From: Hasllibacter sp. MH4015
GTDB lineage: Bacteria > Pseudomonadota > Alphaproteobacteria > Rhodobacterales > Rhodobacteraceae
Assembly: GCF_020177575.1 (NCBI RefSeq)
Contig: NZ_JAHTBK010000001.1
Coordinates: forward strand, 2,725,875 to 2,789,874
DNA: 64,000 bases
Reading direction: 5' to 3'
Within the stretch, counting starts at the first letter, position 1. Each line of letters begins with the position of its first letter. Below, in pieces: positions 26,143 to 42,546 of the stretch. The notes beneath the pieces were generated by a model, which was not told where the DNA came from, searched no databases, and was given only the letters and a program-made list of their open reading frames with translations. A program made the position numbers and the translations under genes.

Positions 26143-27702
26143 TCAGGTTCCGGTTGCGCGAGACAGGATCGTGCGCGCTTCGCCCGTGTCGCCCGCCCAG
26201 GCGACATAGCCGTCAGGGCGGACAAGGATGGCGCGGGCCTCGTAATCGCGCCGTTCGCCGTCGAAGGTGTCCGTGACGACCGCGAGGGGAACTCCCCGCG
26301 TTTGGGCGGCGGCGGCAAGATCCTCGGCCAATCCCGCGCCGAAATCGAACAGGGTGAAGCCCGGTCCAAGCGCCTGATACGTCGAGCGCCCGTCCAACAG
26401 CGCGCGCGGCGCAAGGTGATGGCCCGCGCGTGCCGCGAACCTGTGATCCCCCTTGGCGCTGGGGCGGCCTTCCCCGCCGATGATGGGCGAGCCTTCGTAA
26501 TTCGGGGCGAAGGCAAAGACCTCGGACGCGCCTTCGTTCCGGGCGGCCCAGACCTGCGCAAAATCGGGATCGCTTGGCGCGTGACGTGCCAGGAACGCGC
26601 GGTCTTCCTCGATGAAGCGGCGGATGAAATCGCGGTCGGTGGAGGCGAAGACGGGACGACGTTCGGCGTCGTAGCTGTCGAGCAGATCCGGCCCCGCCCA
26701 TCCTTGCACCGTCGCCGCCAGTTTCCAACCGAGGTTTCGCGCATCCTCGAACCCGGTGTTGATCCCGTAGCCGCCATAGGGCGGGTGCGAATGGCAGGCA
26801 TCCCCGGCGATCAGCACGCGGCCCGCCCGGTAGGTATCGGCCAGTGCAAACCGCAAGTCCCAGAAGCCCACATATGTCACATCCAGATCGAAGGGCCGTC
26901 CGACGGCGGCGTGAAGCAGCGCGGCGAAATCGGTGTTTTCGCGCGTCGTGTCGGGGGGCACGGGGGCATGGAAAAACCATTCCGTCCGGCCATCGACGCG
27001 ACCGAGGAAGCGCCAATACCCGTCCAATTCCGGGGCCATGGCGTTATAGAAGGCGCGCGCCGCGTAATGTTCGCCGAGGATGTCGTGCAAAACGGGGGAG
27101 GTGAAGACCAGAAGCACCATCTTTCGGTCGTGATCCGACAGGGTCTGGGTGATTTCCGCCGCCGTCCGGACGCCGGATTTGCTCCCGTCGCACCCGACCA
27201 CGTAGCGGGCGCGGATCGTGTCCGTTGCGGCCCCTTTGTGGGCCTTGATCCCGACCGTCACGCCATCGGCGTCCTGCGTCAGCCCGTCGAAGGCCCAGCC
27301 GTACATCGTGTCGATGCCGTCCAGCTCTGCCGCGCGGGCGCGCAACACCGCCTCCGTCCGGTATTGCGGCATCCGGTCGACCGCCTGGCCGTAGAAGGGC
27401 TGAACGCTTTCGCGCGGCATGAAATCATAGGCGTAATCGCTCAGGATCGTGCCGTAGGTCACAAGCCCGCCATTGGCCACGCCCCGGGGCGTCAGGCGGG
27501 CGGCGCGCATCTGCGGCTCACACCCCCAGGCGTCGATATGTTCAAGGCTGCGTTGGGTCATGTTCTGACCCTTCGGCACCTTTTGCGGTTCAAGATACCG
27601 CTCCACCAGGGCCACGCACATTCCGCGTTGCGCCAGGTCGATGGCGAGCCCCGTGCCGACCGGCCCGCCCCCTATCACGGCGACATCGTGGGTGGGTTTC
27701 AT
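26143..27702 (-). CDS. FAD-dependent aromatic-ring monooxygenase (PheA/MhpA type)
   Basis: 519 residues from ATG 27702, with GGGGGAGG 8 nt upstream; the 624-residue frame that reads further is not supported. Group A flavin hydroxylase motifs are all present: AVIGGGPVGTGLAIDLAQRG (dinucleotide-binding), YVVGCDGSKSGVR (DG motif) and RVLIAGDACHSHPPYGGYG (GD motif), and a C-terminal thioredoxin-like region. Such enzymes hydroxylate phenols, 3-hydroxyphenylpropionate or related aromatics with NAD(P)H and O2. It stands alone between convergent and co-directional genes, so its substrate is not indicated. A role in aromatic catabolism alongside the reductive dehalogenase is possible but the two genes are 7 kb apart. 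Confidence 0.85.
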   Translation of the reverse strand: MKPTHDVAVIGGGPVGTGLAIDLAQRGMCVALVERYLEPQKVPKGQNMTQRSLEHIDAWGCEPQMRAARLTPRGVANGGLVTYGTILSDYAYDFMPRESVQPFYGQAVDRMPQYRTEAVLRARAAELDGIDTMYGWAFDGLTQDADGVTVGIKAHKGAATDTIRARYVVGCDGSKSGVRTAAEITQTLSDHDRKMVLLVFTSPVLHDILGEHYAARAFYNAMAPELDGYWRFLGRVDGRTEWFFHAPVPPDTTRENTDFAALLHAAVGRPFDLDVTYVGFWDLRFALADTYRAGRVLIAGDACHSHPPYGGYGINTGFEDARNLGWKLAATVQGWAGPDLLDSYDAERRPVFASTDRDFIRRFIEEDRAFLARHAPSDPDFAQVWAARNEGASEVFAFAPNYEGSPIIGGEGRPSAKGDHRFAARAGHHLAPRALLDGRSTYQALGPGFTLFDFGAGLAEDLAAAAQTRGVPLAVVTDTFDGERRDYEARAILVRPDGYVAWAGDTGEARTILSRATGT

Positions 27703-27796: not shown

Positions 27797-29008
27797 CTAG
27801 CGACCTGGGGCAAGATGGGCGGCGGCATCGGCGAGGACTTGAAGGCCGACGACCAGATCATCCTCCGCCGTGTCTTCTTCGAATGCGTGGGATATTCCGT
27901 TGATCGAGGGGACGAACAACATCCCGACCGGCATAAGTGCCGCAACGTTGGAGGCATCGTGAAGCGCGCCGGAGGGCATGGAGCGCCATTGATCCGGCGC
28001 GACCGCTTCAGCGGCACGGGTCAAGGCCGCCTGCATGGTCTGATCCATCGGCACGGGCTTGAGATCCTGGCGCAGACGCTCCACCGCGATCGTGCAGCCC
28101 GTCTCCTCCTGCACCTGCGCGATCACGTCGTGGATCACCTGTTCCATGCGGGCAAGCCGGTCGTCGTCCGCGTCACGCCATTGCAAGGTGAAGGTGGCGC
28201 GCCCCGGCACGATGGACGATGCGTTGGGCTCCAGCCGCAGATGTCCGACGGTCCAGACCGAGTTCGGCGTGACGACATTGGCCATCCGGTCCTCCACCCT
28301 CGTCGCGATCCGGGTGACGGCGGTGAAGGCATCCCGGCGCAGCGCCATCGGCGTTGTTCCGGCGTGGTTTTGCTGGCCCTGCACGATGATCTGGACCTGC
28401 CGCAATCCGACGATCCCGGTCACGACCCCGATCCGGTCCGTCGATGCGTCAAGCGCGGGGCCCTGTTCGATATGCATCTCGAGAAAGCCGTTGAAGCGCG
28501 CGGGGTCGACGAAATCGCCCTGGCGCCCGGCAAGGCATTCGCGCGCCTCGGCAAATCCGGTGCCGTCGGTCGCGCGCAAGATGTCGGCCTGGGCCAAGCT
28601 CAGCTTGCCGGCCCAAACGGAACTGCCGGTCAGCGCGCCGAAGCGCCCCTCCTCATCCTGGAAACTGACCACCGAGATGGCGTTTCCGCCCGCCTCCCCA
28701 TGGGCGCGCGCGATTTCGAGTGCCGCGATCACCCCCAGCGCGCCGTCGAGCCATCCCCCCTCGGGCTGCGTGTCGGAATGCGACCCGATCAGGAGAGAGC
28801 GGCCCGGCGCCAGACCAAAGAGATTGCCGACCGGATCGAAGCACGGCGTCAGGCCGGCATCGGCGAATTGTCCCGCAAGCCAGTCGCGCGCGGCCATGTC
28901 GGCGTCGGTGAAGGCACGGCGACGCACGCCGTTGCCATCCTTGCCGAACCCCCGAAGCGTGTGGAGATCGCGCAGAAACCGGGTCGGGTCGACGGAAAAG
29001 GGCGTCAT
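27797..29008 (-). CDS. M20-family amidohydrolase (N-carbamoyl-amino-acid / allantoate hydrolase type)
   Basis: 403 residues. Metal ligands of the hydantoinase/carbamoylase branch of M20 peptidases are visible: His77 in [17 protein letters not shown], Asp88, Glu119/Glu120 in [15 protein letters not shown], and the MHIEQGP motif around residue 176. The dimerisation-domain substrate residues QNHAGTTPM follow. These enzymes hydrolyse N-carbamoyl amino acids, ureidoglycine/allantoate or similar amides. A hydantoinase or allantoinase gene is not nearby, so the natural substrate is open. It lies about 95 bp upstream of the flavin monooxygenase on the same strand and could share its transcript. Confidence 0.85.
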
Positions 29009-31380: not shown

Positions 31381-31779
31381 CTATTCCACGCGCCGCCAGG
31401 TCTGCCCCCCGCAGACGAGGCCCCCCAGAACGCAGCCGGAAACGCGCAATTCGTCGGGTCCACGAAACCGCATCCGGGACAGGTAGACGCGGCCGTTTTC
31501 CACGTCCAGCAGCTCACCTCCCGCGAATTCCCCGCCGGTCCATTGCATCCCGGTGACAAGAACGGTGCCGAAATACTGCGATTGCACATTCGCACCGCCG
31601 CCACCGATCAAGGTGCCGCAAAAGGCCGGGCCGCACGGGGCGAAGCGGACATAGCCCCACGATCCCCCGCGCGCGCCCGTTTGCCAGACCCCGTTCAGGT
31701 CATGGGGCGGTGCCTGCGACTGGCCAAGGGCGGCGGCTGGCGCAAAAAGAAGCGACAGGAAGATCGCAAGGCATCTCAT
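31381..31779 (-). CDS. DUF2147-type exported protein
   Basis: 132 residues: a signal peptide (MRCLAIFLSLLFAPAAALGQ) followed by a small beta-rich domain starting NGVWQTGARGGSWGYVRFAP and ending GGLVCGGQTWRR, the pattern of DUF2147 proteins. Four Cys occur in two close pairs and could form periplasmic disulfides. Function unknown. Its start overlaps the end of the histidine kinase gene by 4 nt, so it is expressed with the kinase and may be an accessory sensor partner. Confidence 0.75.
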   Translation of the reverse strand: MRCLAIFLSLLFAPAAALGQSQAPPHDLNGVWQTGARGGSWGYVRFAPCGPAFCGTLIGGGGANVQSQYFGTVLVTGMQWTGGEFAGGELLDVENGRVYLSRMRFRGPDELRVSGCVLGGLVCGGQTWRRVE

Positions 31780-33308
31780 GGCGCGTCTCCGGCCTTTGCG
31801 GTGGGCACGCGGATCACGACGCAGGTTTCATCGTCCGCGCAATCCGGCGCCGAAACCTCCACGCCCGCGCGGGCGGCCTGTTCCCGGACGATGGCTAGGC
31901 CAAGGCCGGTGCCGTCCGACCCGTCGCCCTTGGACCACGGATCGAAATCCAGAACGCCCGCGCCGGGATTGCGGATGCGGAAGGTGTAGCCATCCGCCGC
32001 CGCCGCCCCGCTGACGGAAAGCGTTCCGGGCGCGCCATGGGCGATGGCGTTGGAGACGACGTTGCACAGCACCCGCATCAGGGCCAGCGGTTGCGTGTGC
32101 AGGCCCGCCGGGGCCACGTCGAGGTCGAGCACGAGGTTCCGCTTCGCGGCGTCGTCTTCGAACATGCGCTGCAAGGTCTGCCCGATCTGTTCGGCCCGCA
32201 CGTTGTGGTCGGCCTCGGTATCCAGCCGCTCCCGCTCGGCCAGGGCTATGGGATCGGCGGCCTCGTCCGTGGCCTCGCTCATGTAGCTGGAGGCCAGTTC
32301 ATCGAGGTAATCGAGCGAATCCCGCAGATGATCGCGGGTGTCGGCGGGCATGTCGCGGGCGAGCACCGAAAAGGACGTGCGCAGGGAGGATAGCGGTTGC
32401 CGGATGTCGTGGGAGGCGGTTGCAAGGCGCAAGGTGCGCGCGCGGGCCAGGTCGACGGCGGCCTTGTGGTTGTCTTGCGCTTCCAGAAGCTCCTGACTGA
32501 TGCGGGCCTGTTCGATGGCGCGGTCCAGCGCCTCCTGCACCGCGATTTCCCGGTCCGATTGCAGCACGAAGATGTTACGGATGAACAGCGCGCCGAAGCC
32601 GATGGTGATGGCCGCGATCAGGAACCGGTTGATTGCAACCGTCAGATCCTGGCCGTCGAACGCGCCGGCCACCACGACGGTGCCACCGATCAGAACCCCG
32701 GTCAGGAGCACCCAGATCAGGTTGCGGATGATACGGTCATATCCGCCACGCAGCTTTGTGAAGGTCGATACCGGGAAGAAATGCGCAATTGCCACGGTGC
32801 AGCCGGTGACGCTGAACAACAGGTGGGCGAATTCGAGCGATCCCGTCCGCCCGATGGCCCAGATGCCCCAGATCCCGATGGCGGCGACGGCGAATGGCCG
32901 TTTCAGCCAGCCCCAGCGGTGGTCGGCGGGAAGGGTGTTGGACGCCACGAGGTAATTGATCGACAGCATCGCGTAGCCACAGGCGATCAGGCTGTGGGGC
33001 CCGATGTCGATCCCGGACCAGACGATCCCGGTGATGTTCTGCTCGAACAGGCCGACATAGATCAGCCCCAGAAGCACCAGAAGCGTGTAGAGCGCCCAGG
33101 TCCCATGCCGCAGCGACAGGGCGATCGCCATGAGGACCGCGAGGACCGAAAAGGTGCACAGGTAGAACGCCGCCGCCGCCACCGCGCCCGCCGCCACGTC
33201 CCCCAGCGGTTGGGCGGGCACATCGAACGTCACCGCCCCGCTGAAGGAGGCCGATAGCCCAAGGGCCAAGCCCGCCCGGGTCACGATGGGGATTAACGGC
33301 TTTGTCAT
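31776..33308 (-). CDS. Sensor histidine kinase with a multi-pass membrane sensor
   Basis: 510 residues. The first ~245 residues hold seven or more hydrophobic segments and no large periplasmic loop, resembling 7TM-type sensors. A coiled-coil linker leads to the dimerisation box LATASHDIRQPLSSLR with phosphoacceptor His300. The ATPase domain has an N box (LCNVVSNAIAHG, Asn420) and a G box (GTGLGLAIVRE). The 62-bp gap to the divergent response regulator gene at 33371 makes the two a pair. The signal is unknown; an intramembrane or envelope stimulus is likely. A small exported DUF2147 gene is translationally coupled downstream. Confidence 0.9.
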   Translation of the reverse strand: MTKPLIPIVTRAGLALGLSASFSGAVTFDVPAQPLGDVAAGAVAAAAFYLCTFSVLAVLMAIALSLRHGTWALYTLLVLLGLIYVGLFEQNITGIVWSGIDIGPHSLIACGYAMLSINYLVASNTLPADHRWGWLKRPFAVAAIGIWGIWAIGRTGSLEFAHLLFSVTGCTVAIAHFFPVSTFTKLRGGYDRIIRNLIWVLLTGVLIGGTVVVAGAFDGQDLTVAINRFLIAAITIGFGALFIRNIFVLQSDREIAVQEALDRAIEQARISQELLEAQDNHKAAVDLARARTLRLATASHDIRQPLSSLRTSFSVLARDMPADTRDHLRDSLDYLDELASSYMSEATDEAADPIALAERERLDTEADHNVRAEQIGQTLQRMFEDDAAKRNLVLDLDVAPAGLHTQPLALMRVLCNVVSNAIAHGAPGTLSVSGAAAADGYTFRIRNPGAGVLDFDPWSKGDGSDGTGLGLAIVREQAARAGVEVSAPDCADDETCVVIRVPTAKAGDAP

Positions 33309-33370
33309 GGGCGGTGCATCGGATAGGTTTTCCCGAAAGCTTGGTCGATGTCAGGCCGTCGGAGCTGAGG

Positions 33371-34021
33371 ATGACAAGACGCTACACCGGAATGCTTGCC
33401 GACGATCACAAGATTGTCCGGATGGGCCTGAGAACGGCGCTGACCCATGACGACGCGATGCATGACACGCCGGTCGATATCGTGGCGGAGGCCGAAGACG
33501 GGTTGCAGACCATCCAGGCGGTCAAGACCCATCGCCCCGATCTGCTGATCCTCGACGTGTCGATGCCCATCGCCTCGGGCGCGGAGATCGTGGCGGATGT
33601 CCAGCGTTGGAGCCCGGACACGAAGGTCGTCGTCTACAGCGCCGTCACCTCCCCCGGTCTTCTGGCGCATCTGATCGAGGCGGGGGTGCATGGGCTTTTC
33701 GCGAAAGGGTCGGATGCGGGCGGAATGCTGGCCGCCTTGCCGCTGATCCTGCGCGGCGGGCGACAGGTGGAGCCCGCGATCCTCGACCTGGTGCGCGGCG
33801 CGCCGGAACCGGCCAGCCTGACGGCGCGGGAGCGGCAGACGCTCAACATGGTTCTGGCGGGCAAGACCAATGCGGAGGTCGCGCGCCTGATGGGGATCAG
33901 CCCCAAGACCGCGGAAAAGCACCGCGCCAGCATGATGGCCAAGCTGGAAGTCCGCACCCTGGCGGAGTTGATGGCCAAGGCGCTGCAGGATGGCCTGATC
34001 GAGCAGCATGGTCTGATGTAG
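33371..34021 (+). CDS. Response regulator, NarL/LuxR type
   Basis: 216 residues from ATG 33371 (GGAG just upstream); an in-frame ATG at 33308 region would overlap the kinase start and has no ribosome site. Receiver domain: acidic pair Asp11/Asp12 in MLADDHKIVRMG, phosphorylated Asp62 in LLILDVSMP, and Lys in LFAKGSD. The C-terminal GerE-type helix-turn-helix reads SLTARERQTLNMVLAGKTNA and SPKTAEKHRASMMAKLEVRT. It is divergent from the histidine kinase at 31776, its likely partner. The next downstream gene encodes a small exported protein that may be a target. Confidence 0.9.
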   Translation: MTRRYTGMLADDHKIVRMGLRTALTHDDAMHDTPVDIVAEAEDGLQTIQAVKTHRPDLLILDVSMPIASGAEIVADVQRWSPDTKVVVYSAVTSPGLLAHLIEAGVHGLFAKGSDAGGMLAALPLILRGGRQVEPAILDLVRGAPEPASLTARERQTLNMVLAGKTNAEVARLMGISPKTAEKHRASMMAKLEVRTLAELMAKALQDGLIEQHGLM

Positions 34022-34193
34022 CGGCATCGCGCATCTCCGGGATTTGATGCATGGAAGCTAGGATAGCCGGGGGCAGCCCCATATGGGGAGTCCCCCCCAT
34101 ATTTCCGACGGGCGGCGACGGGTAGGTCTGGCTCAGCGGTCGCACGATGTGGCCCCGACCGAACCCGACGCTTTAACCCAAAGGAATACTTCA

Positions 34194-34625
34194 ATGACCC
34201 CTTCCCTGACCAAGACAATTCGCCTTGCCACCGCGGCCGCCATCGTTGCCGCTTCCGGCCTTGCCGCCACCGTAGCCACGGCGCAGACCTTCGAGCCCGG
34301 CTTCATCCAGTCCCTGAGCGTGACCTCCACCCGTGGCGAAAGCCAGATGGACCAGTTTTTCAATGACGCCACCAGCGGGAACCCGGCGATCACGCGGGTC
34401 TGCGTGGTGAACTTCGGCTCCGTCCAGCGCGCCTTCACCCACACGGTTGCGGGCATAAACCCGCTGATCGCGCAACCCGGCAGCCAGAGCTGCGCCAACT
34501 TCGATTCCAGTAGCCGCGTGGCCTTCGGGATGGTCGACGGGTTGGAGCCGGCACAGGCCAACCGCGCGATGGTCATGAACCTTGACGCATTCGCGGGCGG
34601 TACGGTCAGCTTCGTCTGGCAGTGA
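34194..34625 (+). CDS. Small exported protein of unknown function
   Basis: 143 residues from ATG 34194, with AAGGAA about 10 nt upstream. A clear signal peptide (SLTKTIRLATAAAIVAASGL) is cut probably after ATA/ATAQ near residue 32. The mature ~110 residues have two Cys (CVVNFG and QSCANF) that may form a disulfide and look beta-rich. I do not recognise a family. It follows the response regulator with about 170 bp between and is followed by two hairpins, so it is probably its own transcription unit, perhaps regulated by the neighbouring two-component system. Confidence 0.65.
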   Translation: MTPSLTKTIRLATAAAIVAASGLAATVATAQTFEPGFIQSLSVTSTRGESQMDQFFNDATSGNPAITRVCVVNFGSVQRAFTHTVAGINPLIAQPGSQSCANFDSSSRVAFGMVDGLEPAQANRAMVMNLDAFAGGTVSFVWQ

Positions 34626-34763: not shown

Positions 34764-37700
34764 TCAGAGGTCCAGCTCGATCACGCCCCCGGCTTCCGCC
34801 GCGCGGGACTGGCACAGGATGATCGCATCTTCCCGCTGCGCCTTCGACAGGACGAAATCGCGGTGCTCCACGTCGCCGGATACGATCCCGCATTTGCACA
34901 CGCCGCAAATCCCGTCGGAACATTTCAGGTCGATCGGGAAACCATTCTCGATCAGCACGTCCGCCGCCGTCTTGTCGGCGGGGACCGCGAATTCGACCCC
35001 GGATTTCGCAAGCCGGATGGTAAACTCGAAATTCTCGTAATCCGGCTGCTCGGGGACAGAGAAATACTCCAGGTGCCGGGCTTGTTCGGGAAAGCCGCTG
35101 GCCTCCGCCTGCTCCATCACCGCGCCCATGTACCGGTCCGCACCGCAGGTATAGACGTGCCAGCCCGGCTGATACCGCGACAGGACGGCGCCGAGGTCGA
35201 CGCGCGTATCCTCATCGGTGACATGCAGCTGCACCCTGTCGGCCCAGGGAAACGTCGCGATGTCGTCCAGAAACCCCATCGCGGCGCGTGTCCGTCCGGA
35301 ATAATGCAGATCGAAGCTGCGCCCTTGGGCGTGCAATTCATGGGCCATCGCCAGCATCGGGGTCACGCCGATACCGCCGCCCATCAGCAGCGAATGCGTC
35401 GCACCGGGGTCGAGGGGGAAGTGATTGATGGGTTTGGAGACGAAGATCCGCCGCCCCTCGCTGAAGATCCGATGCAGCAGCTTGGACCCGCCGCGCCCCG
35501 CATCCTCCCGCAGGACGGCGATCTGGTAGGTGTGGCGGTCGGCCGGATTGCCGGACATCGAGTATTGCCGCAGGAATTCCGGGGCCACGACAATGTCGAG
35601 ATGTGCGCCCGCGTTCCATTCCGGCAAGGCGCTGCCATCGGGGGCCTGGAATTCGTATTTCACCACGCCGTCCGCCATCTCCTCCACCTTGGAGATGACC
35701 ATTTGCAGGACCGGGCTGTCGCCGTCATTGGTGTAACGGTGCAAATACGGCTCCAGCGTCCCATCCTCGGCGCGGCGCTGGTATTCCTCGGCGGTTATCA
35801 TCGCCTGGTAGGCCTCGATCCCCGCTTCCCGGTCCATGGGGAACGGATAGGGATAGGGGTGCGGCGCAAGGTTGGCGGGATAGACGGCGAGCGTCTGATC
35901 CTCGTATTTCAGAACCAGATCGGTCTGGAGCGAGCGGGTGTTGACCGGCTTGTCCGTCGGGCGATACGCGCCGTCCTCCTCAAGCTCCAGATCCCACCAC
36001 CACTTCTTCACCGGGTTCAGGGCGCCGTTTTCCACGTAATCATCCAGCTTGGCGAGGATCGGAGCGGCACCAGGCATGTTCATCGCCGCCCATCGGAACG
36101 GCTTTTCCTTGAACAGCCCCTCAAGGTTCCAGGGGCAGGTTTTCATGCAGCGCCCACACATCGCACCGCCCGGCGTGGTGACGCGATACGTGGTGCATTT
36201 CTGGCTGTCGCTTTTCCAGATCTCGTAGCCGTTGAACATCAGCTTCGGTCCGGCGGTGATCGCGCCCGACGGGCATTCGCGCGCGCATTTGTTGCAGCTT
36301 TCGCAAAAGGTCTGGAGACCGAAATCAATCGGCTTGTCGTGTTCCATCGGCAGATCGGTCGTGACGACGCCGGATTTCAGGCGCGGGCCAAGGAACGGGT
36401 TGAGGATGACCTCGCCGATCCTGCTGACCTCGCCCAGGCCCGACAGCAGCAGGAGCGGAGGTTGCAGAACCTCCCCATCCATCACGGAATGCGCCTTGGC
36501 CTTGTAGCCGAGGTTGCGGATCTGCCGGGCGATGACACCGCCCAGCAGCGAGAAACGCAGATAGGCGCGCATGGATTGGGCGACCGCGATCCAGTCATCG
36601 CCCGATGACCCCTCCATCGTCTCGTAGCCCTGGTCGATGATCATGCTGATGGCCTGGTCGTGGGGCGGCTCCAACACCTCGCCCCGCGCGTCGTGGCTGT
36701 ACCACGCCCAATCCGGGCAGCGCGAAATGCCCACGGCATCCACCCCGATGAAATAGCTCGTCGCCTTGATGAGCGCCGCCGCCTCTGCCGGGTCGAGCCG
36801 CACCTTGTCGGGGGCCGAAGCGCCGTCTTGCAACAGCACGAACGCCCCCAGCGCGCGGCGTTGCGCGGCGGACGGGGCGGCCTTGCGCACGTAAAGGCCA
36901 CCCTTGGCCCCGTCTTGCAGGTTCTTGCCCAGGTCGCCGAAGGTGGATCGCGCGAACATGTCGGTGCGCTTGGGCACCCGGGCGACATTCGGCTCGTCGA
37001 TATAGGTGGTGGGCGTGTCTACGCGGGTCAGCGTCTCGAACGGATGCGCGCCGTCGACGAAGCGACGGTCGCGGTAGGGCACGGCATTGGTGGCATTCTT
37101 GGCGAACCCGCGCCCCATTTTCCACGCCAGCCCGAAGGCGGATTTCGGTTGCTGGTCCAGCGGCACAAGGGGCAGGTCGACGGCAATCTCGAACGTGGTC
37201 GTCACCGCCGACAGGCCGAACCGCGTGCCGATATAGGGATGGGTCAGCACCCCGTCCTCCACCGTGGCAAGGCCCGCGGCCACCGCCAGCTTGTTGAGGT
37301 CCACGTCCGAGCTGGAGACAGTATGCCCGCGCGCGTCGAAGCCGAGGATGCGCAGGTAGTTCGACAAGACCGCCGCCGTTTCCGCCGCAAGCAGTCCGGC
37401 GCGGTGGGCCTGCGCGTCCTGGATCCAGTCGGCCCCGACCTCCCCCGGTTCGGGATCGCGGGGGTTCTCATACAAGAAGACCATCGCGTGGGTGTGGCCG
37501 TCGATCCCCGAGGGCGGGGCCATCATCGATTCCCGCAAATCGGCCATCACCATGTCGATACCGGCGGCGAGCGTCTTGGTCTGGCGGGTCTTCAGATCCT
37601 CCGCCAGTCGATCCACGTCAGGGTTCTTGAACGGCGTCTCCAGCATCGCCTCATCCGGCAGGCGGCAGGCCCCCGCCAGCGCGGCATCCGCGAAATAGGC

Positions 37701-37976
37701 AAACGCCTTGAGGTGGTTGGCCCGTTCTACGGGGTCTGGTGGGCATTCAGCCACGGATCCGTTGATCAGCCCGTCCCGGATCGCGTCGAGCATCGCCTGG
37801 TGTTCGCGCATCGCGTTGACGATGGAATGCGGAGCGTCTGGCCGGTCGAACGACACCTGGCCATGGGCGGGCACCTTCGACAGGTCCGACAAGTCCGCCC
37901 GGCGCGCCAGCAATTCCGATGGATATCGGCCCATATGGACGGGGCGATCCTTGTCGGAGAAAAAGCGTAGTGTCAT
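34764..37976 (-). CDS. rdhA: Cytosolic, self-sufficient reductive dehalogenase (NpRdhA/BhbA type)
   Basis: 1070 residues in one chain. Residues ~150-560 form the cobalamin-binding dehalogenase region, preceded by a degenerate copy of itself (about 183-260 against 461-540). Candidate catalytic residues are Tyr472 (MRAYLRF) and Lys534 (PRLKSG), 62 residues apart, the same spacing as I recall for Tyr426/Lys488 of NpRdhA. Two 4Fe-4S motifs follow: Cys558/561/564/568 and Cys594/607/610/614. From ~745 comes a flavin/NAD(P)H reductase of the phthalate-dioxygenase-reductase type (RQYSMSG at 803, GGGIGVTPM at 866), then a plant-type 2Fe-2S ferredoxin (Cys1019/1024/1027/1055). There is no Tat signal and no RdhB membrane anchor gene, so it is a cytosolic catabolic enzyme, not a respiratory one. 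Known relatives remove halogens from halogenated phenols and hydroxybenzoates using NADPH and B12. Substrate here not proven. Confidence 0.92.
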   Translation of the reverse strand: MTLRFFSDKDRPVHMGRYPSELLARRADLSDLSKVPAHGQVSFDRPDAPHSIVNAMREHQAMLDAIRDGLINGSVAECPPDPVERANHLKAFAYFADAALAGACRLPDEAMLETPFKNPDVDRLAEDLKTRQTKTLAAGIDMVMADLRESMMAPPSGIDGHTHAMVFLYENPRDPEPGEVGADWIQDAQAHRAGLLAAETAAVLSNYLRILGFDARGHTVSSSDVDLNKLAVAAGLATVEDGVLTHPYIGTRFGLSAVTTTFEIAVDLPLVPLDQQPKSAFGLAWKMGRGFAKNATNAVPYRDRRFVDGAHPFETLTRVDTPTTYIDEPNVARVPKRTDMFARSTFGDLGKNLQDGAKGGLYVRKAAPSAAQRRALGAFVLLQDGASAPDKVRLDPAEAAALIKATSYFIGVDAVGISRCPDWAWYSHDARGEVLEPPHDQAISMIIDQGYETMEGSSGDDWIAVAQSMRAYLRFSLLGGVIARQIRNLGYKAKAHSVMDGEVLQPPLLLLSGLGEVSRIGEVILNPFLGPRLKSGVVTTDLPMEHDKPIDFGLQTFCESCNKCARECPSGAITAGPKLMFNGYEIWKSDSQKCTTYRVTTPGGAMCGRCMKTCPWNLEGLFKEKPFRWAAMNMPGAAPILAKLDDYVENGALNPVKKWWWDLELEEDGAYRPTDKPVNTRSLQTDLVLKYEDQTLAVYPANLAPHPYPYPFPMDREAGIEAYQAMITAEEYQRRAEDGTLEPYLHRYTNDGDSPVLQMVISKVEEMADGVVKYEFQAPDGSALPEWNAGAHLDIVVAPEFLRQYSMSGNPADRHTYQIAVLREDAGRGGSKLLHRIFSEGRRIFVSKPINHFPLDPGATHSLLMGGGIGVTPMLAMAHELHAQGRSFDLHYSGRTRAAMGFLDDIATFPWADRVQLHVTDEDTRVDLGAVLSRYQPGWHVYTCGADRYMGAVMEQAEASGFPEQARHLEYFSVPEQPDYENFEFTIRLAKSGVEFAVPADKTAADVLIENGFPIDLKCSDGICGVCKCGIVSGDVEHRDFVLSKAQREDAIILCQSRAAEAGGVIELDL

Positions 37977-38069
37977 CCGGGCCGCTCCCCATGGGCTGTG
38001 GCGTCGATGTCGGGTGCGGACCGGCCCGGTTCCCGCACCGAGTCCGCCCCTGCCCGCGTCGGCGCGCTT

Positions 38070-38102
38070 GTGAAATGGTTACTCAATGCAACTACCTTTC
38101 AC
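38070..38102. promoter_or_regulatory. Nested symmetric operator between rdhA and the aminotransferase gene
   Basis: GTGAAATGGT (38070-38079) and ACCTTTCAC (38094-38102) are inverted repeats with a single-base bulge. Inside them, GTTACTCAATGCAAC (38078-38092) is itself a near-palindrome with the same centre (about 38086). It is the least GC-rich stretch of the 271-bp divergent gap. It is likely a regulator site, perhaps of MarR type as in other catabolic dehalogenase loci, though no regulator gene is adjacent. I saw no cobalamin riboswitch. Confidence 0.55.
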
Positions 38103-38247
38103 AACCTTCGGCCCCGTGCCCGCCCCAGGCCGCGCCGCTGTCGCATCACGGGCGTTGTAGTTTTCGGCCCGGTGGGTGTAATGGCCCGCAGCCGCATAAT
38201 TCACCGCCGCGTTGCGCGCAGGTCCGATGAGAAGGGGAGATCGAGAC

Positions 38248-39444
38248 ATGTTTGAATCCGTCGAAAGCCGAGGCGTCGATCAGATCCTCGCCCTGATGCA
38301 GGCCTTCCGGGCCGATCCGCGCCCCGGGAAGGTCGACCTTGTGGTCGGTGTCTACAAGGATGCGCAGGGCCGCGTGCCGGTGATGCGCGCCGTCAAGGCG
38401 GCGGAGCGTCTGTTGATCGAAGCCGAAGACACCAAGACCTATGTCGGGATGGCGGGGGATGCGGATTACCGCGCCCATGCCGCGCGCCTGCTGCTGGGGA
38501 ACGATGCCCCGCAGATCGCGGAGGGTCGCGTGACCAGCCTTCAGACCGTCGGCGGATCGGGCGCGTTGCGCGTCGGCTGCGACCTTCTGAAATCGCTGAA
38601 CGCGGACATGAAGCTCTGGGTCAGCACGCCGACCTGGGCCAACCATGTGCCGGTTGCAACCGATGCGGGCCTGCGCACGGATGCCTACCCCTATTTCCGC
38701 CCCTCCGACCGGGGTCTCGATTTCGACGGCATGATGGCGCATCTGGACGCGCAATCCGCGGAAGGTGACGCGATCTTGCTGCACGCCTGCTGCCACAACC
38801 CTACCGGCGTCGACCTGTCGTTCGACCAATGGAAGACGGTCACGGATTTCTTGGTCGCGCGCGGCCTGCTTCCCTTTGTGGACTGCGCTTATCAGGGGCT
38901 TGGCAAGGGGATGGAGGAAGATGTGGCGGGCCTGCGCCACATGGCGGCCCACGTGCCGGAGATGCTGATCGCCAGCTCTTTTTCCAAGAACTTCGCCGTC
39001 TACCGCGAACGCACCGGGGCGCTGACCATCATGGCCCGCGCGGCGGAGGATATCGGCGCGATCCAGGGCGCGGCGGAAACGGTGATCCGCTCCAACTATT
39101 CCATGCCGCCCAGCCACGGCGCGCGGATTGTGGCCGCCGTCCTGGACGATCCGGCCCTGACCGCCGATTGGTCGGAGGAACTGGACGAGATGCGCAAGCG
39201 CATCGCTTCGGTTCGCCAGACCCTGCGGACGATGTTGGAGGAGCGTCAGGTCACGAAAGACCTGTCCTTCGTGACGGATCAGACCGGCATGTTCTCCTAT
39301 ACCGGGTTCGGGCCGGAGGCCGTCGCGACCCTGCGCGACGATCACGGCATCTACATCGCCGGGGACGGGCGGATCAACGTGGCCGGCCTGTCCGAGGACA
39401 ACCTCGACGCGGTCGCCGACGGGTTCGCGGCCGTGATGCGCTAG
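38248..39444 (+). CDS. Aromatic/aspartate aminotransferase (AspC/TyrB family)
   Basis: 398 residues from ATG 38248, with AAGGGGAG upstream. It is a fold-type I, PLP-dependent class I aminotransferase: the PLP Lys is Lys247 in SSFSKNFAVYRER, Asn184 lies in CCHNPTGVDLS, and VDCAYQGLGKG follows. These enzymes transaminate aspartate and aromatic amino acids with 2-oxoglutarate. Sequence alone does not separate aspartate from tyrosine/phenylalanine preference. It is divergent from rdhA across a 271-bp gap with a symmetric operator-like site; if co-regulated, a halogenated aromatic amino acid route would be one explanation. Confidence 0.88.
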   Translation: MFESVESRGVDQILALMQAFRADPRPGKVDLVVGVYKDAQGRVPVMRAVKAAERLLIEAEDTKTYVGMAGDADYRAHAARLLLGNDAPQIAEGRVTSLQTVGGSGALRVGCDLLKSLNADMKLWVSTPTWANHVPVATDAGLRTDAYPYFRPSDRGLDFDGMMAHLDAQSAEGDAILLHACCHNPTGVDLSFDQWKTVTDFLVARGLLPFVDCAYQGLGKGMEEDVAGLRHMAAHVPEMLIASSFSKNFAVYRERTGALTIMARAAEDIGAIQGAAETVIRSNYSMPPSHGARIVAAVLDDPALTADWSEELDEMRKRIASVRQTLRTMLEERQVTKDLSFVTDQTGMFSYTGFGPEAVATLRDDHGIYIAGDGRINVAGLSEDNLDAVADGFAAVMR

Positions 39445-39480: not shown

Positions 39481-40683
39481 CTATTCCGCCGCGATCCGAA
39501 GCTCTTCCGGGTGCTTGGGCGCATAGCCATCCCGCGTCTGCGGCGTCTTGATGCCGAGCACCGATCCGGCAACCTGGGTGCGCAGGATCTGAGCGGTGCC
39601 GCCGCCGATCGTGAACATCCGCACATCGCGGTACATCCGCTCCAATGGTTCCCGGTCGCCGTACCCCCGCGCGCCGAACATCTGCAGCGCATCATTGACG
39701 ACCTTGATCCCCATCTCCGACGCGAACAGCTTGGCGCGCGCCGCCATGGTCATGTCGGGGAACCGCCCGCCGGACCGCGCCGCATCGTGCAGCAACAGAC
39801 GGGCGGCGTGGATCTGCACATCCATATCGGCCAGCATCCATTGCAGGCCCTGGAATTCTGCAAGCGGGCGACCGAATTGCTCCCGTTCCAGCAGGTAGCG
39901 TCTGGCATGGTCGAAAGCCCCGGCGGCAACGCCCAGGGCAATGGTGCCTGCGCCCACGCGCTGCGAGTTGTAGGCGTTCATCAGGTCCGCGAAGCCGCGT
40001 TTCAGCCCGGAAGGCGGGGTCAGCAACCACCGCTCGTGGACTTCCAGATCGTCGAAGCGCAACTCCGCCTCGGGCATACCGCACAGGCCCATCGTGTGTT
40101 CGCGCCCGTCGATGTGGAATCCGTCGGGCAGGTTCTCGGGATCGGCATGGACGATGAAGCCGCCGATGCCTTCTTCGTGCCCCGCCTCATCCAGGACCCG
40201 CGCGAAGATGAGGTGAAGTTTGGAAACCCCGCCGCCCGTGATCCAGTGCTTGCGTCCGTTCAGGATATAGGTGTCGCCGTGCTTGCGCGCGGTCGTGCGC
40301 ATATCCGTCGCGGCACTTCCGGCGTCGGGTTCGGTGATGCAGATCGCGGGCTTGTCCCCGGCCAGAACGATGGGTGCGCAATAGGCTTTCTGGGCGTCGG
40401 TGCCATAGGCCATCACCGCGCTGATGCCGCCCATATTCGCCTCCACCACCACGCGCGCGGTCAGGGTGCACGCCTTCGCGATCTCCTCCACCACCATGGC
40501 GACGTCGAGGAAGCTGGCCCCCTGCCCGCCCAGCGCCTTGGGGATGGACATGCCCATGATGCCCGCCTCGCTCAGCTCCTTCACGTTGGCCCAGCAATAG
40601 CTGCGCGTGCGATCCCAGTGTGCTGCACGCTCGGCAAAACCGGGGGCAAGATCGCGGGCGGTGGAGACAAGGGGGTGGGACAT
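39481..40683 (-). CDS. Acyl-CoA dehydrogenase family protein
   Basis: 400 residues with the ACAD fold: the flavin/substrate region CITEPDAGSAATDMRTTA, HWITGGGVSKLHL and the C-terminal helical domain with LLEREQFGRPLAEFQGLQWM. In short/medium-chain enzymes the catalytic base is the Glu of an EGT motif; here the site reads RMFTIGGGTAQIL, with Gly. The base may be elsewhere, as in isovaleryl-CoA or long-chain dehydrogenases, or the reaction is unusual. It is divergent from a LysR regulator and shares with it a strongly symmetric promoter. The acyl-CoA substrate is unknown. Confidence 0.85.
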   Translation of the reverse strand: MSHPLVSTARDLAPGFAERAAHWDRTRSYCWANVKELSEAGIMGMSIPKALGGQGASFLDVAMVVEEIAKACTLTARVVVEANMGGISAVMAYGTDAQKAYCAPIVLAGDKPAICITEPDAGSAATDMRTTARKHGDTYILNGRKHWITGGGVSKLHLIFARVLDEAGHEEGIGGFIVHADPENLPDGFHIDGREHTMGLCGMPEAELRFDDLEVHERWLLTPPSGLKRGFADLMNAYNSQRVGAGTIALGVAAGAFDHARRYLLEREQFGRPLAEFQGLQWMLADMDVQIHAARLLLHDAARSGGRFPDMTMAARAKLFASEMGIKVVNDALQMFGARGYGDREPLERMYRDVRMFTIGGGTAQILRTQVAGSVLGIKTPQTRDGYAPKHPEELRIAAE

Positions 40684-40799: not shown

Positions 40800-41660
40800 A
40801 TGCAAACCCGCGCCCTCAGGACACTGGTGAAACTCTCGCGCGTTCCGTCCTTCGTGCAGGCGGCCGATCAGCTTGGCATGACCCTTTCGGCCCTTTCGAT
40901 GCAGATGAAGGCGCTGGAGGCCGAGCTTGGCGTTGCCCTGTTCGACCGCACGACGCGCCCGCCCAGGATGACTCCCGTGGCCCACGCCATCGTGGAGGAG
41001 GCGATCCCCCTCCTCCGGCGGGAGGATCGGCTGGTGGAGATGTGCCGCCCGACCGATGATCTCGTGGGGCGCTTCAAACTTGGCTTCATCACCACCGCGG
41101 CGGTCCGCCTGCTGCCGGGGTTCTTGCAACAAGCGCAGGCCCAGGCCCCGCTTGCGCGGTTCGAGGTTGAAACCGGCCTTTCCGCGACCCTGCAAAGCAA
41201 GGTCCTCAACGGACAGATCGACGGGGCAGTCGTCACTGATGCAGACGGCCTTCCGGCGCAATTGTCCGCCCGTCTGCTGCGCGAGGAGCCGTTCGTCTTC
41301 GCCGCCCACAGGGCATTGATGGAGGGCGGGTTGGACGGCCTTCTGTCCCGTCAGACTTTCTTTCACTTCATGCCGGAGACGGGGATCGGCAAACTGATCG
41401 CCCGGGCCATGTCCGACTACGCCCGCCCGGCAGAGGCACGCACGATCGTCCTCGACAATCTGGAGGCGATCATGGAATGCGTGGCGGCGGGGCTTGGTTT
41501 CACCCTCATGCCCGTACCCGACGTGACGCGCTATCTGACCGACGACATCCAGACATTGCCGGCCCCGGACATGCTGCAACGCCGCCTGATCCTTGCCGTG
41601 CTGAAGGACAGCCCGCTGGCCCGGCGCGAGGCGGCGCTGGCCGCGCTCTTCGCGGAATAG
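40800..41660 (+). CDS. LysR-family transcriptional regulator
   Basis: 286 residues. The N-terminal winged helix reads SFVQAADQLGMTLSALSMQM and LEAELGVALFDRTTRPPRMT; the rest is the two-lobed periplasmic-binding-like effector domain. The start at 40800 has AGGA 5 nt upstream, inside the right arm of the nested operator. It is divergent from the acyl-CoA dehydrogenase gene, its likely target, and is followed 74 bp later by a citryl-CoA-lyase-like gene on the same strand. Confidence 0.9.
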   Translation: MQTRALRTLVKLSRVPSFVQAADQLGMTLSALSMQMKALEAELGVALFDRTTRPPRMTPVAHAIVEEAIPLLRREDRLVEMCRPTDDLVGRFKLGFITTAAVRLLPGFLQQAQAQAPLARFEVETGLSATLQSKVLNGQIDGAVVTDADGLPAQLSARLLREEPFVFAAHRALMEGGLDGLLSRQTFFHFMPETGIGKLIARAMSDYARPAEARTIVLDNLEAIMECVAAGLGFTLMPVPDVTRYLTDDIQTLPAPDMLQRRLILAVLKDSPLARREAALAALFAE

Positions 41661-41736
41661 GCTGCGGGCGGCCCTCGACAATTCCACCCGACGCGGCAAA
41701 TGTGGGGCCGCTTGGACAGGCGGGTGGGCGTATGTG

Positions 41737-42546
41737 ATGACGAAAACGGATGATCTCGGCGCGTGGTGGCGCACGTCCATCATCGACATGGAGCCCGGGC
41801 GCATCGCGATCCGCGGCACCCCGATCGAGGAGCTGATCGGGACCGTCAGTTTTCCGCAGATGATCTGGCTGATGACCCGCGGCGACCTGCCCGAATCCGC
41901 GCAGGCGCAGCTTCTGGAGGCCGCGCTGGTCGCCGGTGTGGACCATGGCCCGCAAGCCCCGTCCATCGCCGCGGCACGGATGGCGGCGACCTGCGGGCTC
42001 GGCCTCAACAACGTTATGGCGACCGGCGTGAACATGTTGGGCGATGTCCACGGCGGCGCGGGAGAGCAATGTGCGGAGCTGCTGTTCGACATCTCCGCGC
42101 GCGTGGACTGCGGGGCCGATCCGGAAAAGGCGGTCGCGGACGTCCTGTCCGCGTGGCGGGACACGCATGGCAAGATCATTCCCGGCTTCGGCCACCGTTT
42201 CCACAAACCCGTCGATCCGCGCGCCCCGCGCCTGATGGCCCTTGTGCGGGACGCGGCGCAGGCGGGAACCGTCAGCGGGCGCTTCGCCGAGATCGGGGAG
42301 GCCGTGCAGACCCGCATCGGCGCGGATCGCGGGGCGCCCATTGCGATGAATATCGACGGGGCCACGGCGGTCATCTTCTGCGAATTGGGCTTCCCGCCGC
42401 CGCTGGCGCGCGGGCTGTTTTGCCTGTCGCGGTCGGTCGGCATCCTTTCCCATGGCTGGGAACAGATGCAGCAGGGCGGGCGCAACAAGGGGCCGATGCC
42501 ACCCGGCTATCTTCCACACTACGACGCGCCGGACGAAGATGCGTGA
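41737..42546 (+). CDS. Citryl-CoA lyase-like protein (citrate synthase family)
   Basis: About 269 residues; start either ATG 41737 or the GTG just before it. It is the short citrate-synthase-fold version: GDVHGGAGEQCAELLFD with a catalytic-type His, IPGFGHRFHKPVDPRA with the CoA/oxoacid His, and AMNIDGATAVIFCELGFPP with the catalytic Asp region. Citryl-CoA lyases split citryl-CoA (or related malyl/citramalyl-CoA-like esters) into acetyl-CoA and an oxoacid; bacterial short homologues are often of unproven specificity. It follows the LysR gene and precedes copA, but copA has its own promoter. Confidence 0.8.
   Translation: MTKTDDLGAWWRTSIIDMEPGRIAIRGTPIEELIGTVSFPQMIWLMTRGDLPESAQAQLLEAALVAGVDHGPQAPSIAAARMAATCGLGLNNVMATGVNMLGDVHGGAGEQCAELLFDISARVDCGADPEKAVADVLSAWRDTHGKIIPGFGHRFHKPVDPRAPRLMALVRDAAQAGTVSGRFAEIGEAVQTRIGADRGAPIAMNIDGATAVIFCELGFPPPLARGLFCLSRSVGILSHGWEQMQQGGRNKGPMPPGYLPHYDAPDEDA

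Follow-up and report, generated by a model that had tools for sequence, protein, structure and literature searches.

The 64,000-nucleotide stretch of Hasllibacter sp. MH4015 DNA analysed here (the window) carries a gene for a fused reductive dehalogenase (RdhA), whose product we assign with high confidence to the cytosolic, self-sufficient catabolic reductive dehalogenases of the BhbA/JtRdhA subfamily. Judged by its characterised relatives, the enzyme, a B12 protein with a built-in reductase, very probably removes bromine or iodine from phenol-like molecules. The gene is a genuine, well-preserved and ordinary member of a characterised family that is common in marine bacteria; its interest lies in its distribution and in its pairing with a second dehalogenase, not in the enzyme type. 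The gene, its parts and its upstream region were delimited as follows.

34764..37976, minus strand: fused reductive dehalogenase gene (open reading frame, profile, structure-match and fold evidence)
36813..37976, minus strand: N-terminal part, residues 1 to ~388 (approximate boundary), which holds Phe341 (NpRdhA alignment)
35784..36812, minus strand: catalytic cobalamin and 2x[4Fe-4S] part, residues ~389-731 (profile, NpRdhA alignment, conservation)
34767..35711, minus strand: phthalate-dioxygenase-reductase-like module, residues 756-1070, with [2Fe-2S] Cys 1019/1024/1027/1055 (Fer2, 2pia, fold match)
37977..38247: intergenic region up to a divergent aminotransferase, whose ATG is placed by inference at 38248 (sequence reading)

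The open reading frame (ORF) starts with ATG, encodes 1070 residues with zero internal stops and is preceded by GGGGAG eight bases 5' of the start codon. It is located on the 3.68-Mb contig. The protein matches the TIGR02486 'reductive dehalogenase' model with 194 bits (cut-off 160.35) and is the sole match over this cut-off in the 3.71-Mb two-contig genome. The Pfam models Fer4_7, Fer4_16, Fer4 and Fer2 all exceed their own cut-offs. Alignment to NpRdhA of Nitratireductor pacificus (6zxu, 4ras) gave an E value of ~1e-158, strongest over residues 160-730 and weaker over residues 2-108, and the phthalate dioxygenase reductase (PDOR) 2pia aligned to residues 756-1067 (E 6.7e-58). These matches confirm the initial annotation, made from the DNA letters, which had read the protein as a fusion of a cobalamin core, two 4Fe-4S motifs, a flavin reductase and a 2Fe-2S ferredoxin. 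By analogy with NpRdhA, residues 1 to ~388 would represent the vestigial duplicated cobalamin-domain region described in PMC10463259. These residues are covered by both the sequence alignment and the fold match to NpRdhA, which has the vestigial duplication, and the duplication is taken over from that match.

Fisher et al. single out six active-site residues in NpRdhA (F291, S422, M423, Y426, K488 and R552; PMC10463259). In the alignment with 4ras, numbered by hand, Tyr472, Lys534 and Arg598 of the window protein correspond to NpRdhA Tyr426, Lys488 and Arg552, and Phe341, Ser468 and Met469 to Phe291, Ser422 and Met423. The initial proposal of Tyr472 and Lys534 as candidate active site therefore holds: both align with the NpRdhA pair at the same spacing of 62 residues, and the four other named residues match as well. 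Conservation was analysed in 81 rows drawn from 107 relatives, comprising the window protein, 78 other fusions and two rows without the reductase module. Phe341, Ser468, Tyr472, Lys534 and Arg598 are invariant (81/81), Met469 is present in 80 rows, and the 4Fe-4S cysteines 558/561/564/568 and 594/607/610/614 are found in every row. The [2Fe-2S] cysteines 1019/1024/1027/1055 occur in 79 rows, the two rows without the reductase module having gaps. Mean column identity was 76%. At the position of NpRdhA Ala419, which lines the second-halogen pocket (PMC7565698), the window protein has Val465, and valine stands there in 77 of the 81 rows.

The initial annotation had proposed superposition of a predicted structure on NpRdhA as a check. 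In a Foldseek search with an AlphaFold2 model (61-row alignment, predicted template modelling score (pTM) 0.71), ranks 1-14 were all NpRdhA chains, with template modelling (TM) scores of 0.83-0.85 by target length and root-mean-square deviations of 4.7-5.8. Ranks 15-18 were two self-sufficient P450s, a phthalate dioxygenase reductase and one entry titled 'a bacteria protein'. Since the model is of moderate confidence, residue geometry relies on the NpRdhA sequence alignment. The predicted fold agrees with the sequence result, and the placement of Tyr472 and Lys534 over the cobalamin is not set by the fold match alone.

Architecture, residue conservation and fold match were observed directly, and so was the presence in the genome of genes for B12 synthesis and for the downstream routes. 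What we infer from NpRdhA and JtRdhA are the bound cofactors, the activity and its substrate, the path of the electrons, the use of NADPH and the tolerance of oxygen. By this analogy, reduced nicotinamide adenine dinucleotide (phosphate), NAD(P)H, would donate a hydride to the flavin of the reductase module at the C-terminus (flavin mononucleotide in JtRdhA), from which electrons would reach the base-off cobalamin by way of the [2Fe-2S] domain and the pair of [4Fe-4S] clusters. The hydroxyl of an ortho-halogenated phenol would be held by Ser468, Lys534 and Arg598 with the halogen pointing toward cobalt, and the carbon-halogen bond would be cleaved reductively, with a proton from Tyr472 assisted by Lys534. 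Likely substrates would be bromo- or iodo-4-hydroxybenzoates and -4-hydroxyphenylacetates and simple bromophenols; the dehalogenated product could enter the protocatechuate (PobA) or the homogentisate (HmgA) route. Indeed, the genome encodes PobA (701 bits) and HmgA (632.6 bits) elsewhere than at the window gene, as well as the B12 synthesis proteins CobQ (435 bits) and CobN (1001 bits), all above the profile cut-offs. JtRdhA of the marine Jhaorihella thermophila, purified and assayed in 2023, is NADPH-driven and oxygen-tolerant and couples bromine and iodine removal 1:1; it acts on bromo- and iodophenols, not on chlorophenols, and the tested chlorinated compounds only inhibit (PMC10463259). 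Of the earlier prediction of B12- and NADPH-driven halogen removal, the catabolic dehalogenase type can be kept, but 'halogen' is too wide if JtRdhA is the guide.

Further clues to the substrate come from the neighbourhoods of relatives, for which 105 loci were compiled (80 from a genome-contig scan, 20 further loci and five plasmid loci). Homogentisate dioxygenase (hmgA) is found near 11 of them, a flavin adenine dinucleotide (FAD) monooxygenase near 12 and a tripartite ATP-independent periplasmic (TRAP) permease near nine. A PobA-type hydroxylase lies near eight, directly downstream in four; this count rests on queries from L070 and Nitratireductor OM-1, and the eight include the BhbA plasmid and that of Nitratireductor OM-1. 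Together, hmgA or pobA occurs in 18/105 loci. With a chance expectation of ~0.5% of loci for a single-copy gene, p is ~8e-12 for hmgA and ~7e-8 for pobA; both values are optimistic, because the markers were selected after the clusters had been seen, four of the 11 hmgA loci belong to the own genus and the L065 and L135 proteins are identical. The proximity hints at halogenated 4-hydroxyphenylacetate or tyrosine and at 4-hydroxybenzoate as substrates.

A respiratory dehalogenase, which would use the halogenated compound as terminal electron acceptor, has the TIGR02486 core in common with the window protein, and the respiratory PceA matches it with E 5.8e-28. Respiratory RdhAs are marked by a twin-arginine translocation (Tat) signal and an rdhB membrane-anchor gene. 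Neither mark was found: the first 60 residues contain no hydrophobic stretch (best 15-residue hydropathy mean 0.14, judged without a signal-peptide program), and no hydrophobic small ORF was seen by eye in the two flanking gaps, to which the rdhB search was limited. The initial annotation had likewise noted neither, and on this basis its statement stands. Moreover, the protein has its own reductase module, and its closest solved structure is the catabolic NpRdhA, which makes a respiratory role highly improbable. We give just as little credence to the idea that the protein is another cobalamin class III reductase of related type, for instance epoxyqueuosine reductase, or a fusion no longer active as a dehalogenase. 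A weak QueG match exists, but at 25.2 bits it is far under its cut-off of 200, whereas the dehalogenase model is over its own; the six active-site residues are retained at the mean identity given above. What was found are the marks of an RdhA-PDOR fusion: dehalogenase core, two [4Fe-4S] cysteine sets, [2Fe-2S] reductase module and Tyr-Lys/Arg site, together with the duplicated N-terminal domain (via the NpRdhA match) and the lack of Tat and rdhB (by-eye lists).

The divergent gene at 38212-39444 suggests a role in halotyrosine catabolism, in which the enzyme and an aromatic-amino-acid-type aminotransferase would feed dehalogenated tyrosine or hydroxyphenylpyruvate to homogentisate. The aminotransferase matches NF006719 'aromatic amino acid transaminase' with 535 bits (cut-off 377) and shares the intergenic region with the dehalogenase, and hmgA is present near relatives and in the own genome. 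Against this, the aminotransferase was found in 0/80 and 0/20 relative loci (tblastn, E 1e-10, at most 10 kb of flank), and the next gene encodes a 3-sulfinopropanoyl-CoA desulfinase, so that the aminotransferase may serve sulfinate metabolism. We therefore set the halotyrosine operon aside as the leading explanation and keep it as an unlikely alternative to a self-sufficient catabolic dehalogenase of bromo- and iodophenols. Several points weigh against the latter assignment too. Pfam PF13486 did not match the window protein at E 0.001, its single match in the genome being a standalone second gene. The structural model reached a mean predicted local distance difference test score (pLDDT) of only 74.2, and its segments below 50 include 338-351 (around Phe341), 518-527 and 562-592. 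No halophenol-route gene adjoins the dehalogenase in the window, the divergent neighbour being the aminotransferase beside the desulfinase, and for 87/105 relative loci the DNA covered lacks both hmgA and pobA. Finally, likeness to JtRdhA is set by its published description (PMC10463259), not by sequence identity.

The standalone gene encodes a second dehalogenase outside the window:

C1:1197072-1198301 of the own genome (L003:994-2223): standalone RdhA, 409 aa, TIGR02486 156.4 bits, just under the cut-off

It is 64% identical over 406 columns to a standalone frame of Roseobacter sp. MED193; between the MED193 fusion protein and the window protein, identity is 71%. The gene preceding C1:1197072-1198301 appears to encode an agmatinase or arginase. 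Roseobacter sp. MED193 is also the source of Ros_A3X954, a proven oxygen-sensitive 2,6-dibromophenol debrominase (PMC13101508). Both sequence motifs given for Ros_A3X954 occur in the standalone MED193 frame, and a mass of ~50 kDa follows from the kcat and specific activity reported for the enzyme (PMC13101508); we therefore identify Ros_A3X954, by sequence comparison, as the standalone MED193 protein and not the fusion. With the fused protein as query, 9/13 genus genomes gave a standalone match (frames of 410-532 aa); kinship with Ros_A3X954 was compared for the own genome only.

The scan of genome contigs found 567 stretches that encode a relative at E 1e-3, and the fused gene is present over essentially its full length in all 13 genomes of the own genus. 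The rarity assumed initially is not borne out by these numbers. The best 80 of the 567 were examined, and the remaining 487 may include partial relatives. These 80 are 70-80% identical, 79 being essentially full length and one (L037) truncated at its end. By record titles they come mainly from marine-type Alphaproteobacteria, in line with the marine-type setting first proposed. Among 61 genomes searched, including the own, 36 had some match and 21 a match over essentially all 1070 residues (13/13 own-genus genomes and 8/24 other family genomes). In eight plasmid records a single location covers 80% or more of the query, with 51-77% identity; one of them is that of Comamonas BhbA (52%).

Conservation of the window neighbours was analysed by tblastn (E 1e-10; at most 10 kb of flank, less where a contig was short). 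Near the 80 relatives, matches comprised the ring-hydroxylase family in eight loci (25-29% identical), acyl-CoA dehydrogenases in seven, copper-ATPase-like proteins in two, and LysR, citryl-CoA-lyase-like and major facilitator superfamily (MFS) proteins in one each. The MFS match (60%, L010, more than 10 kb from the gene start) was the sole close match over most of a query, and the 20 further loci gave two LysR and four hydroxylase matches only. The neighbours are not conserved among relatives. In a FastTree gene tree of 106 rows (L037 and L113 excluded), the 13 genus copies occupy three places: the window copy groups with Marinovum and a Planktomarina bin, five copies adjoin an uncultured Rhodobacteraceae row and seven others group elsewhere. 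The seven rows labelled Granulosicoccaceae or Granulosicoccus, which are gammaproteobacteria (all metagenome-assembled genomes or uncultured isolates), are scattered to three places. A single inherited copy for the whole genus was rejected: the tree with the 13 copies together was 137 log units worse (approximately unbiased test, p 0.0012; 52 hand-picked rows, quick search, LG+G4, chosen after the 106-row tree was known, with the genus defined independently of the tree). Since the genus copies fall into three clades, the gene appears to move horizontally, and horizontal exchange is the plain reading of its distribution; no mobile element was found, no search aimed at one having been made. We tentatively suggest that the gene is single-gene mobile cargo, repeatedly re-acquired by marine roseobacters, and that many hosts pair the fused enzyme, oxygen-tolerant if JtRdhA-like, with a standalone enzyme of the oxygen-sensitive kind, so that they would have two ways of debromination, each suited to a different oxygen level.

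Other features of the window are as follows.

26143-27690, minus strand: FAD aromatic-ring-hydroxylase-like monooxygenase (PF01494, 218.5 bits)
27797-29008: hydantoinase/carbamoylase-type amidase adjoining it (TIGR01879, over cut-off)
31381-34625: block of a small secreted-type protein, a histidine kinase, a LuxR-type response regulator and a small ORF
39481-40683, minus strand: 3-sulfinopropanoyl-CoA desulfinase (NF042439, 662 bits, cut-off 600)
40800-41660, plus strand: LysR gene, divergent from the desulfinase
41734-42546, plus strand: citryl-CoA lyase-type protein (NF004864, 442 bits, cut-off 261)

The citryl-CoA lyase-type gene is flanked by the LysR gene and by a frame that we take to be a heavy-metal P-type ATPase; the small secreted-type protein is presumably DUF2147. 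In the genus, the desulfinase/LysR pair is found in 10/12 other genomes, away from the dehalogenase, and the first three genes of the kinase block occur together in 4/12, with the small ORF in three of these four, all without the dehalogenase. Neither dehalogenase nor aminotransferase was found in those 14 stretches. The histidine kinase of one genus genome (G005) has an internal stop. No clean empty insertion site could be shown, because the desulfinase/LysR and kinase blocks lie apart in the other genus genomes. K-mer counts over 103 upstream regions made no case for a shared operator; they yielded words rich in G+C and one of the CTGTCACCC type, in no more than nine regions. The inverted repeat TTGTGAAA/TTTCACAA in 37977..38247 (arms 38068-38075 and 38097-38104) is absent from the 12 top words per length.

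Aerobic debromination by marine heterotrophs matters for the ocean bromine cycle and for bioremediation. The enzyme class is already described and the window gene adds one member; beyond that, the analysis puts forward two testable points, the substrate routes to which the relatives' gene neighbourhoods point and a repeated horizontal gain of the gene in a single genus. PMC10463259 defines the self-sufficient catabolic RdhA subfamily, states that most catabolic RdhAs bear the reductase module and places roseobacter sequences such as Ruegeria pomeroyi in a tree legend, whose text leaves the subfamily unspecified. Putative bhbA homologues are widespread across the Roseobacter clade (PMC13101508). 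The initial view that only a small group is characterised omits JtRdhA, which has the same architecture and comes with kinetics, electron paramagnetic resonance and growth tests, and its grouping of NpRdhA with the fused enzymes was mistaken, NpRdhA being described as a 'truncated' RdhA that works with separate redox partners (PMC10463259).

At 38-39% identity, NpRdhA shares the core fold with the window protein and has all six of the named active-site residues in common with it, but is without a fused reductase (PMC10463259), takes chlorinated as well as brominated 4-hydroxybenzoates (PMC7565698) and has Ala419 in place of Val465. BhbA of Comamonas sp. 7D-2 (WP_015585978.1), which belongs to a bromoxynil pathway (PMC10463259), is a full-length fusion, 52% identical over its whole length; its gene lies on plasmid pBHB beside ligA and an extradiol dioxygenase gene, whereas the window copy lies on the 3.68-Mb contig without such neighbours. 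Ros_A3X954 resembles the window protein as a B12-dependent, Tat-less roseobacter debrominase (PMC13101508), but it is standalone, smaller and oxygen-sensitive, and its counterpart is the second gene, not the window gene. JtRdhA differs in that its function has been assayed (NADPH, air, bromine and iodine but not chlorine), the window protein being known from its sequence; as described in PMC10463259, it shares with the window protein the lack of a Tat signal, the duplicated cobalamin domain, 2x[4Fe-4S], the PDOR fusion, the same named active-site residues and a marine host.

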